Origin: Flagellimonas zhangzhouensis
Lineage (GTDB): Bacteria; Bacteroidota; Bacteroidia; Flavobacteriales; Flavobacteriaceae
NCBI RefSeq assembly: GCF_900102925.1
Contig: NZ_FNKI01000003.1
Coordinates: 124,001-188,000 of the forward strand
DNA length: 64,000 nucleotides
Reading direction: 5' to 3'
Shown here one piece after another: positions 2,958 through 6,887 of the stretch. The notes under the pieces were generated by a model that saw nothing but the letters and a program-made list of their open reading frames with translations, had not been told where the DNA came from and made no database searches. A program made the translations under genes and the position numbers. Within the stretch, counting starts at the first letter, position 1. Each line of letters opens with the position of its first letter.

Positions 2958-4391
2958 CTAGTCAAGAAAAAAATCATCTTTAAAACCTATTAAATAGAGC
3001 TGTTTTTTGGCTCTAGTTACAGCTGTGTACAACCACCGTAAATAGTCTTTGCTCACACCATTGGGCAAATAAGGTTGCTCCACAAAAACGGTATCCCATT
3101 GCCCTCCTTGGGATTTGTGGCAGGTAATTGCATAGGAAAACTTCACTTGAAGCGCATTAAAAAATCTGTTGTTCTTTACTCCCAAAAACTTTCGGTATTT
3201 GGTTTTTTCGTGTGCGTAATCTTTCATCACTTCTTGATACAATCGATTTCCATCCTCGTAAGATAATGAAGGTGATTCGGCGTTTATAGTGTCCAAGAGC
3301 AAAACTGTTTCAAATGGTTTTTGATTTGGATAATCTACCATCTTTACTTTTACTTCAGCAAAAGTGAATCCATACAATTCTTTGATAGCGAAAAGTTCCA
3401 GAATTTCGATAATATCTCCATTGGCAATAAACCCAGCTTCGGAAGTGGCCTTCAACCAAAAATAGTTGTTTTTTACCACCATCATATAATCCCCAACGGC
3501 AATATCATTTTCCAAGAAAAGGATGCGCTCCCTAATATTTTGATTGTAAAGATTCGCTCTTTTATTAGATCGGACAATAATGGCAGTTTCTTCTTTACCA
3601 TTTTCTGAATACGATGAATCAATGGCTTCTTGTATCTCATTACCATCTATCAACCGAATTATATCCTTATAATGTGCCAAATCAAATTTGAAGTCGTCGA
3701 AATATTCGGATTGTAGTTGCTCCCTTAATAAGGTTGCATTGTGTAATATTCCCGAATTCTCCCGTTGACGCATTACCTCATCCAATTCCAAATACTCAAT
3801 TTCCTTATCATAATTTAAGGAGAGTCGATTTTCATCCAAAGCAGGGCTTAAATCCAATTTTACGGGAGGTAACTGCGCGGTGTCACCAATCAAAATCAAC
3901 CTGCAATTGTGACCTGAGTGCACATAAAACATTAAATCATCTAGCAAAGAACCATTTTCGAAGAGTTTGGAATCGGCAGGAGTATCTGGAATCATGGAAG
4001 CCTCATCTACTATAAATATGGTATTGCGATGTTTGTTCGGGGCCAATACAAATTGAATACCTCCACCAGATTGTTTTTTGGGAAAATATATCTTTTTATG
4101 AATGGTAAATGCCTTACTACCGGAATAAACGGACATCACTTTGGCTGCTCTACCAGTGGGTGCCATTAAAATGGCACTCATTTTCATTTTCCATAAATTA
4201 TTTACCAAAGTGGCTATCAAGGTAGTTTTCCCTGTTCCTGCAAACCCTTTTAACAGGAATACTTGGTCCTTTTTTCCGTCTAAAACAAAGCTAGCCAACT
4301 TTTTAAGTGCCAAACCTTGCTTTAGAGTAGGTGAATGGGGAAATTTTTCGGTTAAAATTTTTAGAAATTCAGGTGTGTTAAAATCCTTCAT
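2958..4391 (-). CDS. RecD/Dda-like superfamily 1 DNA helicase
   Basis: ATP-dependent 5'-3' helicase of the RecD2/Dda type, 477 residues from the chosen start. Walker A is GFAGTGKTT (about 48-56), motif II is VDEAS (about 130), motif III is LIGDTAQLPP (about 168), and the C-terminal motifs ITCHKSQGGQWD and YTAVTRAK mark the UvrD-like second half. A longer frame opens at an ATG at 4409, but a near-consensus -7 element (TATATTTA, 4398-4405) lies between the two ATGs, and known flavobacterial proteins, as I recall them, begin near MKDF; I therefore prefer 4391. Likely role: DNA repair or replication-linked unwinding in the cytoplasm. Confidence 0.88.
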   Translation of the reverse strand: MKDFNTPEFLKILTEKFPHSPTLKQGLALKKLASFVLDGKKDQVFLLKGFAGTGKTTLIATLVNNLWKMKMSAILMAPTGRAAKVMSVYSGSKAFTIHKKIYFPKKQSGGGIQFVLAPNKHRNTIFIVDEASMIPDTPADSKLFENGSLLDDLMFYVHSGHNCRLILIGDTAQLPPVKLDLSPALDENRLSLNYDKEIEYLELDEVMRQRENSGILHNATLLREQLQSEYFDDFKFDLAHYKDIIRLIDGNEIQEAIDSSYSENGKEETAIIVRSNKRANLYNQNIRERILFLENDIAVGDYMMVVKNNYFWLKATSEAGFIANGDIIEILELFAIKELYGFTFAEVKVKMVDYPNQKPFETVLLLDTINAESPSLSYEDGNRLYQEVMKDYAHEKTKYRKFLGVKNNRFFNALQVKFSYAITCHKSQGGQWDTVFVEQPYLPNGVSKDYLRWLYTAVTRAKKQLYLIGFKDDFFLD

Positions 4392-4450
4392 GAGCCTTAA
4401 ATATACCACGGTTTTTTAAAGCAAAAAGTTTCCTGATTAAAAAAAAATTG

Positions 4451-4498: not shown

Positions 4499-5233
4499 AT
4501 GTTAAATTTAATTCTTATTGTTGTTTTAATATGCCTTGTAACCGTAGGGCTAGTATTCTTGATTGACAGGTTATTACCTCAAAAAATCAAACCAGTTTTG
4601 GTAATTGTTTTCGGACTTTTCAGCATTTACCTAGGTTACATGATATATGAATCCATCAATGCCCCCATCGAATTCAACAAAGTTAGAAAAGAAAGATTTT
4701 CTCAAGTAATTTCTAAACTTAAAGACATTCGTGATTCGCAAGAAGCGTACAAGACCGTTAATGGTAAGTATGCAAATGATTTTCAGAGCCTTATTCAATT
4801 CATCGATACAGGCAATTACACCATCACTACGCAACGTGATTCATCTTTCATGAGGTATGACAGAGCTTATCAAATTGATATGCAACAGGATACCATCATT
4901 ATTGATACATTGGGTACTGTAAGTGTAAAAGATTCTATTTTTGGAGCCGATACTCGTTACAAATCCATGATGGACGTGCCTTACGCTCAAAATAATGAGA
5001 AGTTTGAAATGAAAGCTGACATTATTGACAAGAGTGGGTACAAAGCTCCTGTATTTGAAGCTAAGGTGAAAAAAGAAGTAGTGCTTTACGATCAACCAGC
5101 AGATTTGTTGGAAAAAGAAAAAGCACACCAAAGTGTTGAAGAAGTAAACGGTACCGAAATTAAAGTAGGTTCGTTGACAGATGTTAGTACCAATGGAAAC
5201 TGGCCTCCTATTTACGATAGGAAAAACAACTAA
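4499..5233 (+). CDS. Conserved membrane-anchored protein of unknown function
   Basis: A 244-residue protein with two N-terminal membrane helices (about 2-24 and 32-50) followed by a polar domain. A helical part (VRKERFSQVISKLKDI, then RDSQEAY) and the phrase KTVNGKYANDF resemble the region after the helix in pseudopilins, but no prepilin cleavage site is present. The rest is beta-rich and polar. I do not recognise a named family. It is followed within 2-5 bases by the DUF3822 frame and then rsmD, so the three probably form one transcript. Confidence 0.7.
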   Translation: MLNLILIVVLICLVTVGLVFLIDRLLPQKIKPVLVIVFGLFSIYLGYMIYESINAPIEFNKVRKERFSQVISKLKDIRDSQEAYKTVNGKYANDFQSLIQFIDTGNYTITTQRDSSFMRYDRAYQIDMQQDTIIIDTLGTVSVKDSIFGADTRYKSMMDVPYAQNNEKFEMKADIIDKSGYKAPVFEAKVKKEVVLYDQPADLLEKEKAHQSVEEVNGTEIKVGSLTDVSTNGNWPPIYDRKNN

Positions 5234-5235
5234 CT

Positions 5236-6048
5236 ATAGAACAGAAAGTAAAAAATACTACCTATAGGAAACTGTCCATTCAAGCTGGCTTGAATGGACT
5301 TTCTTTTTGTGTGTCGGATACGATCACCAATAAAATATTGGCGTTCGAAAAAGTTCGATTCAACACACCCTCTACGCCGTACCTTTTATTAAAGGAGTTA
5401 AAGGCCAAACTCAGCGATCAAGGAGACATAGGTCGAAACTTCTCAGAAGTAATGGTCATCCACAAAAACAATATGTTCAGTTTGGTGCCCAAACCACTTT
5501 TTAATGAGGAAGAACTCCCAAACTATTTAAAGTTCAATGCCAAAATAATGGCGAACGATCTTATCGCGTACGACGAGATTCCCAATCAAGAATTGGTGAA
5601 CGTTTACATTCCCTACACCAATATCAACAATTACATTTTTGAGCTTTTTGGGGAATTTGAATTCAAGCATAGTGGTACGGTTTTGATCTCAACCTTGTTG
5701 AACCAAAATCGAATGGGTACAGAACCTGTTTGTTATGTTCAAGTTTCTGACAAGGAAATGGAAATGATGGTGGTAGCGGATAAAAAATTATTGTTCTACA
5801 ATCAATTTGAGTTCAAGACTAAAGAAGATTTTCTCTACTACCTATTGTTCAGCATGGAACAATTGAATGTGGATTTGGAGAAGGTACAATTAAAATTGTT
5901 CGGAGCAGTTTCCGAGGGAGATCCAATTTACGAGCTGTGCTATACATATGTAAAACACGTTTCTGTTTTTGTGCCCAGCAATCCAAGTTTCCCAATTGAT
6001 GAATTGGAAAACGAAAGCATTGACTTCTCCATTTTAAGTGCATTATAA
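5236..6048 (+). CDS. DUF3822 family protein (start codon unclear)
   Basis: DUF3822 is a flavobacterial family of about 260-280 residues with a ribonuclease H/actin-like (ASKHA) character. The recognisable N-terminal block, KLSIQAGLNGLSFCVSDT, is encoded from 5269, yet the only usual start codon in frame is a TTG at 5290, inside that block. The frame is open back to 5221 with no ATG, GTG or TTG, and the first plausible non-standard start is ATA at 5236, three bases after the upstream stop. Either a rare start codon is used or the true start has been lost. The TTG start would give 252 residues. The stop abuts the rsmD ATG, with no bases between them. Confidence 0.8.
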   Translation: MEQKVKNTTYRKLSIQAGLNGLSFCVSDTITNKILAFEKVRFNTPSTPYLLLKELKAKLSDQGDIGRNFSEVMVIHKNNMFSLVPKPLFNEEELPNYLKFNAKIMANDLIAYDEIPNQELVNVYIPYTNINNYIFELFGEFEFKHSGTVLISTLLNQNRMGTEPVCYVQVSDKEMEMMVVADKKLLFYNQFEFKTKEDFLYYLLFSMEQLNVDLEKVQLKLFGAVSEGDPIYELCYTYVKHVSVFVPSNPSFPIDELENESIDFSILSAL

Positions 6049-6588
6049 ATGCGGATTATTTCTGGAACATATAAAGGAAAGCGACTGACCGCTCCAAAAA
6101 AATTGCCCGTTCGCCCCACGACGGATATGGCAAAGGAGTCACTTTTCAATATATTGAATAACCGTTTTTATTTTGACGAATTAAAAGTGCTCGACCTTTT
6201 TGCTGGTACCGGCAATATCAGTTACGAATTTGCTTCTAGAGGTGTTGAGGACATTACTGCTGTGGATGCCTTTCCAGGATGCATTCAATTTATTACCAAG
6301 ACAGCAAAAGAATTGGAGTTTTCCATTGATGCCATTAAGGCGGATGTTTTCAAATATTTGGAACGAAACTCTGAAAAGTTTGACCTTATTTTTGCAGACC
6401 CTCCCTATGCTTTTGAGACCGAAGAATTTTTGAAGATTGCCAATTTGGTTTTTGAGCAAGATTTATTGCTGGAAGATGGCGTTTTAGTGATTGAACATTC
6501 AGACCAAACTGACTTATCAGAACACCCAAAATTTTCGGAACAAAGAAAATACGGAAGTAGTATTTTTAGTTTCTTTGAAATAGAATAA
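6049..6588 (+). CDS. rsmD: 16S rRNA (guanine(966)-N2)-methyltransferase RsmD
   Basis: Methylates G966 of 16S rRNA in the small ribosomal subunit. The 179-residue length fits. N-terminal IISGTYKGKRL, then RPTTDMAKESLFNIL (about 22-36), the SAM-binding motif LDLFAGTGN (about 48-56) and the catalytic DPPY (about 115) are all present. The ATG follows directly after the DUF3822 stop, so translation is probably coupled. Confidence 0.95.
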   Translation: MRIISGTYKGKRLTAPKKLPVRPTTDMAKESLFNILNNRFYFDELKVLDLFAGTGNISYEFASRGVEDITAVDAFPGCIQFITKTAKELEFSIDAIKADVFKYLERNSEKFDLIFADPPYAFETEEFLKIANLVFEQDLLLEDGVLVIEHSDQTDLSEHPKFSEQRKYGSSIFSFFEIE

Positions 6589-6887
6589 AAGCAGGCCATA
6601 AGCCGGATTCTGTATACCCTTATCATTTATCTAGGCCTTTAGTTACCCAAAGGCTCGAACCGCCTACCCTCCAACTCGAGCGTGCAGCCCTCAAACATTG
6701 GTTTACATGACGTTTCACCGCATAGAGTTTACCTGATTTCACTACAGCCGAACTGTACTTGCTTTCTGTTGCACTTGTCCTCGCCTTTCGACGGACGGGC
6801 GTTACCCGCTATGCCGCACTATGGTGTCCAGACTTTCCTCTTCGAACCTGTACAAACAAGCTCGCAGCGATAAGGTGGCCTGCTGGC
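6588..6887 (-). ncRNA. rnpB: RNase P RNA (bacterial class A)
   Basis: Catalytic RNA that trims the 5' leader of tRNA precursors. Read on the minus strand, the 5' and 3' ends form a perfect nine-base P1 helix (6876-6884 with 6590-6598). The P4 halves are visible as GAGGAAAGTCTGGAC near the 5' end (about 6830-6845) and AGAATCCGGCTTAT near the 3' end. A GGTAAA loop for binding tRNA CCA is present (about 6728-6735). At roughly 300 nucleotides it is on the short side. It is convergent with rsmD, and its 3' end meets the rsmD stop. The 5' end is placed from the -7 element at 6890-6897. Confidence 0.95.

Follow-up and report, generated by a model that had tools for sequence, protein, structure and literature searches.

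A likely AUA start codon and a covarying terminator-like hairpin in the first codons of a DUF3822 gene of Flagellimonas zhangzhouensis

We analysed a DUF3822 gene and its surroundings in a window of 64,000 nucleotides (the whole stretch of DNA under study, to which coordinates refer unless a locus is named) from the 3.74-Mb genome of Flagellimonas zhangzhouensis. The DUF3822 frame is open from 5221 to 6048, is overlapped by the C-terminus of the preceding gene (...NGNWPPIYDRKNN) and is followed immediately by an rsmD-like gene, with the following features along the locus.

4499 to 5233, plus strand: upstream gene, encoding a membrane-anchored protein of 244 aa, family unknown (model pLDDT 82).
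5214 to 5216, plus strand: place of the overlap ATG (T-ATG-AC) used by 46 of 70 loci in the genus; here ACG and out of frame.
5218 to 5220, plus strand: in-frame TAG that closes the DUF3822 frame on the upstream side.
5231 to 5233, plus strand: TAA that ends the upstream gene, leaving 2 nt before the ATA.
5236 to 6048, plus strand: DUF3822 gene, with a predicted actin-like ATPase fold, relative of BT_3980/3HRG.
5236 to 5238, plus strand: ATA, the most likely DUF3822 start, the same in all 25 clade species and with a precedent in the ATA of infC in the genus.
5239 to 5271, plus strand: variable N-terminal tail, free of stops and indels in 25 of 25 clade species.
5272 to 5274, plus strand: CTG (TTG in 10 of 25 clade species), a weak alternative start at the base of the hairpin.
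5274 to 5299, plus strand: terminator-like hairpin GTCCATTCAAG-CTGG-CTTGAATGGAC, with an 11-bp stem and a 4-nt loop, nested in DUF3822 codons.
5300 to 5308, plus strand: T-tract TTTCTTTTT, directly 3' of the hairpin.
6049 to 6588, plus strand: rsmD-like 16S rRNA methyltransferase gene (PF03602), immediately 3' of DUF3822.

The DUF3822 frame matches PF12864 with an E value of 3.7e-72 (242.9 bits against a gathering score of 24.9), and its closest relative is the DUF3822 protein of Muricauda sp. NBRC 101325, at 99%. The predicted structure of the protein (pLDDT 85.5) is an actin-like ATPase fold that most resembles BT_3980 (3HRG), followed by FtsA, PilM and GspL; β-strand 1 of this fold is formed by residues 11 to 18, numbered from the ATA. 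The upstream protein is predicted to have two N-terminal helices, one short and one long, together with a sheet, and a fold search with the predicted model returned no PDB match at E ≤ 0.001. An NCBIfam search gave no match above the cut-off, and a literature search for the word DUF3822 gave no match. The rsmD gene adjoins DUF3822 in 150 of 156 loci, irrespective of whether the upstream gene is present. At the far end of this neighbourhood, an RNase P RNA gene lies on the minus strand (6584 to 6886), its 3' end meeting or slightly overlapping that of rsmD; on the near side, a separate hairpin of 12 pairs with a T-rich tail (4155 to 4182, plus strand) lies antisense to a gene at 2958 to 4409 that we take, from reading its protein and not from a search, to be helicase-like.

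The initial annotation had claimed that no canonical start precedes the TTG at 5290 in the DUF3822 frame, and both the sequence and the lists of open reading frames confirm that no ATG, GTG or TTG lies in frame between the TAG at 5218 to 5220 and that codon. The codons after the TAG read GAA AAA CAA CTA ACT ATA (5236) GAA and onward to AAA (5269) CTG (5272) TCC ATT CAA GCT GGC TTG (5290). DUF3822 is present in 70 of 71 genomes of the genus; 46 of these 70 loci carry an in-frame ATG within the overlap with the upstream gene, usually 7 codons upstream of the ATA site and within the Tyr-Asp codons of that gene. The other 24 have no in-frame ATG in the overlap and share the arrangement seen here, including the ATA, and one further locus (L078) brings the number to 25. 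An assembly error that had removed an ATG, which the initial annotation had named as a possible refutation, is excluded by this recurrence of the arrangement in 25 species from independent assemblies.

A tree of 94 sequences of the core gene requires two changes to account for loss of the ATG, and its starred branches also force at least two (L150 was excluded from the tree and from the 94-species codon count used below). The first group lacking the ATG is an Allomuricauda clade of 25 members (SH-aLRT 80) and the second is a Croceivirga lineage (SH-aLRT 97; L132, L133, L136 and L155), in which an ATC stands 2 to 3 nt past the upstream stop, the frames being arranged in two different ways. On this tree, Croceivirga lost the overlapping ATG independently of the Allomuricauda clade. 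The ATA had been suggested to be an ATG changed by mutation, a proposal that the sister species contradict: the ancestral ATG sat elsewhere, in the overlap, and 33 of 36 sisters with an ATG at codon -27 carry ATA at the homologous codon as well, amid a hypervariable tail. The comparison indicates that the overlap ATG was lost by indel or decay within the overlap. In two loci (L159 and L161) the overlap has changed, and a canonical start codon (GTG or ATG) now lies nearer to the hairpin. Another (L160) was flagged as start-less in our listing of gaps and does have an ATG; the flag probably reflects a palindromic stem read on the wrong strand, as with L043.

Two readings had been left open for the locus without a canonical start, namely a rare start used through translational coupling and a shortened protein, and the comparison favours the first, with AUA 5236 as the likely start of DUF3822. 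None of the 25 clade species has an ATG, GTG or TTG ahead of the YTG at 5272, and in every one of them ATA occupies the same codon, with a constant gap of 2 nt to the upstream stop; the ATC of Croceivirga and the ATA of infC, described below, point the same way. The constancy of the ATA need not mean that it is used as a start, since it is also kept in the 33 of 36 sisters that have an ATG. Nor is the context of the AUA Kozak-like, with G at -3 in 23 of 25 species; A is favoured at -3 at starts (PMC6847099), and Bacteroidota are described in the same source as naturally without Shine-Dalgarno sequences. The tail between the ATA and the conserved block has no synonymous bias (10 synonymous against 41 other changes in the clade and 33 against 85 in species with the ATG), and its translation is therefore unproven.

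The same lack of bias would suit a different start, in which ribosomes initiate at the CTG or TTG at 5272, at the base of the hairpin; the tail would then be a 5' leader and (M)SIQ the N-terminus of the protein. All 94 species have CTG or TTG at 5272; the TTG, a canonical start, occurs in 10 of the 25 clade species and also in the Croceivirga loci. However, the two codons swap freely there, as expected of an internal leucine codon (15 CTG to 10 TTG in the clade and 14 to 22 in the species with the ATG), and initiation would have to melt the hairpin, whose first stem base belongs to this codon. A start at 5272 would also leave the ATA with no role in initiation and would not account for a tail that has no stop codon and does not vary in length in any of the 25 species, for which the probability of remaining free of stops by chance is about 0.01-0.08. 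We consider this start unlikely, though a serious competitor to AUA 5236.

A shortened protein beginning at TTG 5290, or a gene in decay, seems to us highly improbable. TTG 5290 is the first canonical start in the frame, but a protein beginning there would lose β-strand 1 of the predicted actin-like fold and its start would lie inside the stem of the hairpin; decay is contradicted by strong purifying selection on the DUF3822 core in the clade (945 synonymous against 287 other codon changes). A -1 frameshift from the upstream gene, yielding a fusion protein, could draw on the A-rich GAAAAAC/GAAAAAG in the overlap and on the in-frame open stretch after the TAG that ends at 5220. Against it, in two species (L024 and L025) the A-run is followed by an in-frame TAA three codons before the ATA, so that ribosomes could not arrive in frame from further upstream, and in L132 and L133 a stop codon stands in the same frame between the two genes; we therefore rate a frameshift as extremely unlikely.

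The infC gene provides a parallel to the AUA start within the same genome. Outside the window, infC (L265:1441-1998) has no ATG, GTG or TTG before an ATG at L265:1555 that lies inside the domain, and ATA is found at its N-terminus (IAIRRRF); the lack of a canonical start together with the ATA recurs in 30 of 30 genus loci read. AUA is reported to start infC in Staphylococcus aureus and, for ccpN in that organism, to give about 10-30% of the AUG level (PMC13009471). Given that infC also lacks a canonical start, AUA is a credible start codon for DUF3822. Gene callers limited to ATG, GTG and TTG would shorten DUF3822, and probably IF3 too, in this genus.

The block KLSIQ...LNGLSF had been put down to conservation of the protein family. 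The protein is indeed conserved here, but conservation of protein alone does not describe the block, which in our comparison is also an RNA-level hairpin with a T-tract. The hairpin lies 38 nt past the first base of the ATA, within the DUF3822 frame, and resembles an intrinsic terminator in being a stable stem-loop followed by a U-rich tract (TTTCTTTTT). It folds with a z of -4.4 in a 121-nt setting and is single-copy in the genome with up to 3 mismatches allowed. Most codons of the stem and T-tract show no synonymous change in 94 species (by substitution count, TCC, ATT, GGA, CTT, TCT and TTT are the same in all 94), and codons slightly further on use up to six synonyms.

Pairing has been kept in evolution, with compensatory changes at 7 of the 11 pairs. 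In an alignment of 66 distinct sequences, 98.2% of 726 cells were paired, a proportion biased upward by the choice of rows for having the stem (including L173, with one mismatch), which may also have somewhat favoured double changes. Changes on both sides occurred in 65 cells against 18.5 in shuffles, and none of 500 shuffles was as high on any measure; L043 was left out of this alignment, its palindromic stem having been read on the wrong strand. The stem is retained even where the protein differs (for example in L172, L185 and L230), and a perfect stem of at least 9 bp is present in 23 of 40 further Flavobacteriales loci. Rfam gave no match at gathering score across 5274 to 5308, the best overlapping model being BTnc060 (20.3 bits against 228.9), and our search of the literature on covarying terminator hairpins and translation-coupled intrinsic terminators found no description of this hairpin.

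The distribution of the hairpin follows the upstream gene. We placed DUF3822 in 170 of 196 loci (the 26 in which tblastn did not place it, L164, L166, L176, L177 and L181-L202, were dropped from this count). The upstream gene adjoins DUF3822 in 132 of them and the stem is perfect in 129 of these 132; among the 38 loci without the upstream gene, many of which belong to one genus and are not independent, as the loss in Flavobacterium may be a single event, one has a perfect stem (9 bp) and four have a stem with one mismatch. The two groups are phylogenetically clumped, so that few independent losses stand behind the tie between gene and hairpin. Where the upstream gene is present, the T-tract is exact in 129 of 129 loci, and where it is absent, in 11 of 22. 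Within Flavobacterium, all 7 species that have the upstream gene keep the hairpin, and only one (L263) of the other 23 loci read has a perfect 9-bp stem. A search for the upstream gene at E ≤ 0.1 in 8 hairpin-less Flavobacterium genomes gave no match in 7 and a weak match in 1. Exceptions are L166, the clearest in the family, which has the upstream gene and in which no hairpin was found, and L173, with its mismatched stem. This pattern points to the upstream gene, rather than DUF3822, as the putative owner of the hairpin.

The spacing agrees with such ownership. In most loci 27-42 nt separate the upstream stop from the stem (the upstream stop was not found for L009 and L160, and the L160 entry was disregarded). 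The tR2 terminator of E. coli is reported to reach full efficiency beyond about 27-30 nt from a stop codon and to be repressed when closer (PMC4824070). The gap seen here matches that optimum, and the hairpin therefore has the position expected of a terminator for the upstream gene.

The hairpin could instead be a protein-binding or mRNA-stabilising element, either protecting the 3' end of the upstream message or serving DUF3822 for autoregulation. In the 66 distinct sequences three of the stem pairs are invariant, which may mean that sequence is recognised besides pairing. The exact T-tract in 129 of 129 loci with the upstream gene is, however, a mark of intrinsic termination, and the stem has been lost along with the upstream gene and not with DUF3822. 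A role other than termination is possible, but we regard it as doubtful.

We hypothesize that a coupled AUA start is combined with a nested intrinsic terminator of the upstream gene that throttles DUF3822 and rsmD, an account that we think probable on comparative evidence. Ribosomes finishing the upstream gene at the UAA at 5231 to 5233 would re-initiate at AUA 5236. The first DUF3822 codons would encode an intrinsic terminator (stem 5274 to 5299, U-tract 5300 to 5308) at which most upstream-gene transcripts finish, 27-42 nt past the stop codon of that gene, and the message for DUF3822 and rsmD would be made only by read-through. Translation of DUF3822 should open the hairpin and favour read-through, and the weak AUA start and nested terminator together would hold DUF3822 and rsmD far below the upstream gene. 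We infer the use of AUA, termination in the cell and the modulation of read-through by translation from the conserved arrangement; the last may be slight, since E. coli terminators placed within 100 bp of the start of a coding region are described as efficient even when translated (PMC4824070), so that translational gating may be weak.

A more elaborate extension of the coupled start would make AUA or AUC after the upstream stop a re-initiation codon that was in use before the ATG was lost, with fidelity of start selection setting read-through into rsmD. RsmD methylates 16S rRNA near the P site, with an effect on initiation. A start at AUA, like the AUA-started infC, would be sensitive to initiation fidelity, and translation from it would open the nested terminator, so that fidelity would set read-through into rsmD and a feedback loop of DUF3822 and rsmD would tune start-codon fidelity. 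Earlier function of the AUA would explain why ATA is kept in most of the sisters that have an ATG. We regard this loop as improbable and offer it as speculation.

Under the coupled start and nested terminator, 35 nt seem to serve three layers at once: the beginning of a protein, the first strand critical to its fold and the terminator of the preceding gene. The locus would be a natural test of translation against intrinsic termination in Bacteroidota, with built-in controls in relatives that have ATG, ATA or ATC and in those without the upstream gene, whose hairpin has decayed.

Comparison with characterised systems sets out what the locus shares with them. The relationship to BT_3980 (PDB 3HRG) and to PilM, FtsA and GspL, which share their predicted fold with DUF3822, bears on the protein alone and not on the start codon or hairpin. 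For the start codon, the nearest likeness is to infC and ccpN of S. aureus, where a conserved AUA start is reported to lower initiation, and ATA is also found at the N-terminus of infC here; the S. aureus sites differ in their extended Shine-Dalgarno pairing (PMC13009471), whereas the AUA here stands 2 nt past an upstream stop. For the hairpin, the pyrBI attenuator (pyrL) of E. coli has an intrinsic terminator in a translated stretch, as may be the case here, and a pyrL ribosome close behind RNA polymerase is described as preventing the hairpin (PMC5021804, PMC4824070). There, the stretch encodes a short leader peptide, and pausing is strictly controlled (PMC4824070), whereas here it is the first codons of a conserved gene for a 270-residue protein; unlike in pyrBI, the hairpin accompanies the preceding gene, and a ligand or pausing signal is not known here. 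An intrinsic terminator in the coding region of pilC2 of Clostridium perfringens is reported to cut downstream transcripts 4-5 fold (PMC6958937), but it lies mid-gene and was described in one organism (PMC6958937), whereas the hairpin here lies near the start codon and is conserved in many genera. A non-AUG start and a terminator within a coding region are thus both of known kinds, and what interests us more is the covarying hairpin, terminator-like and nested in the frame, that goes with the preceding gene.
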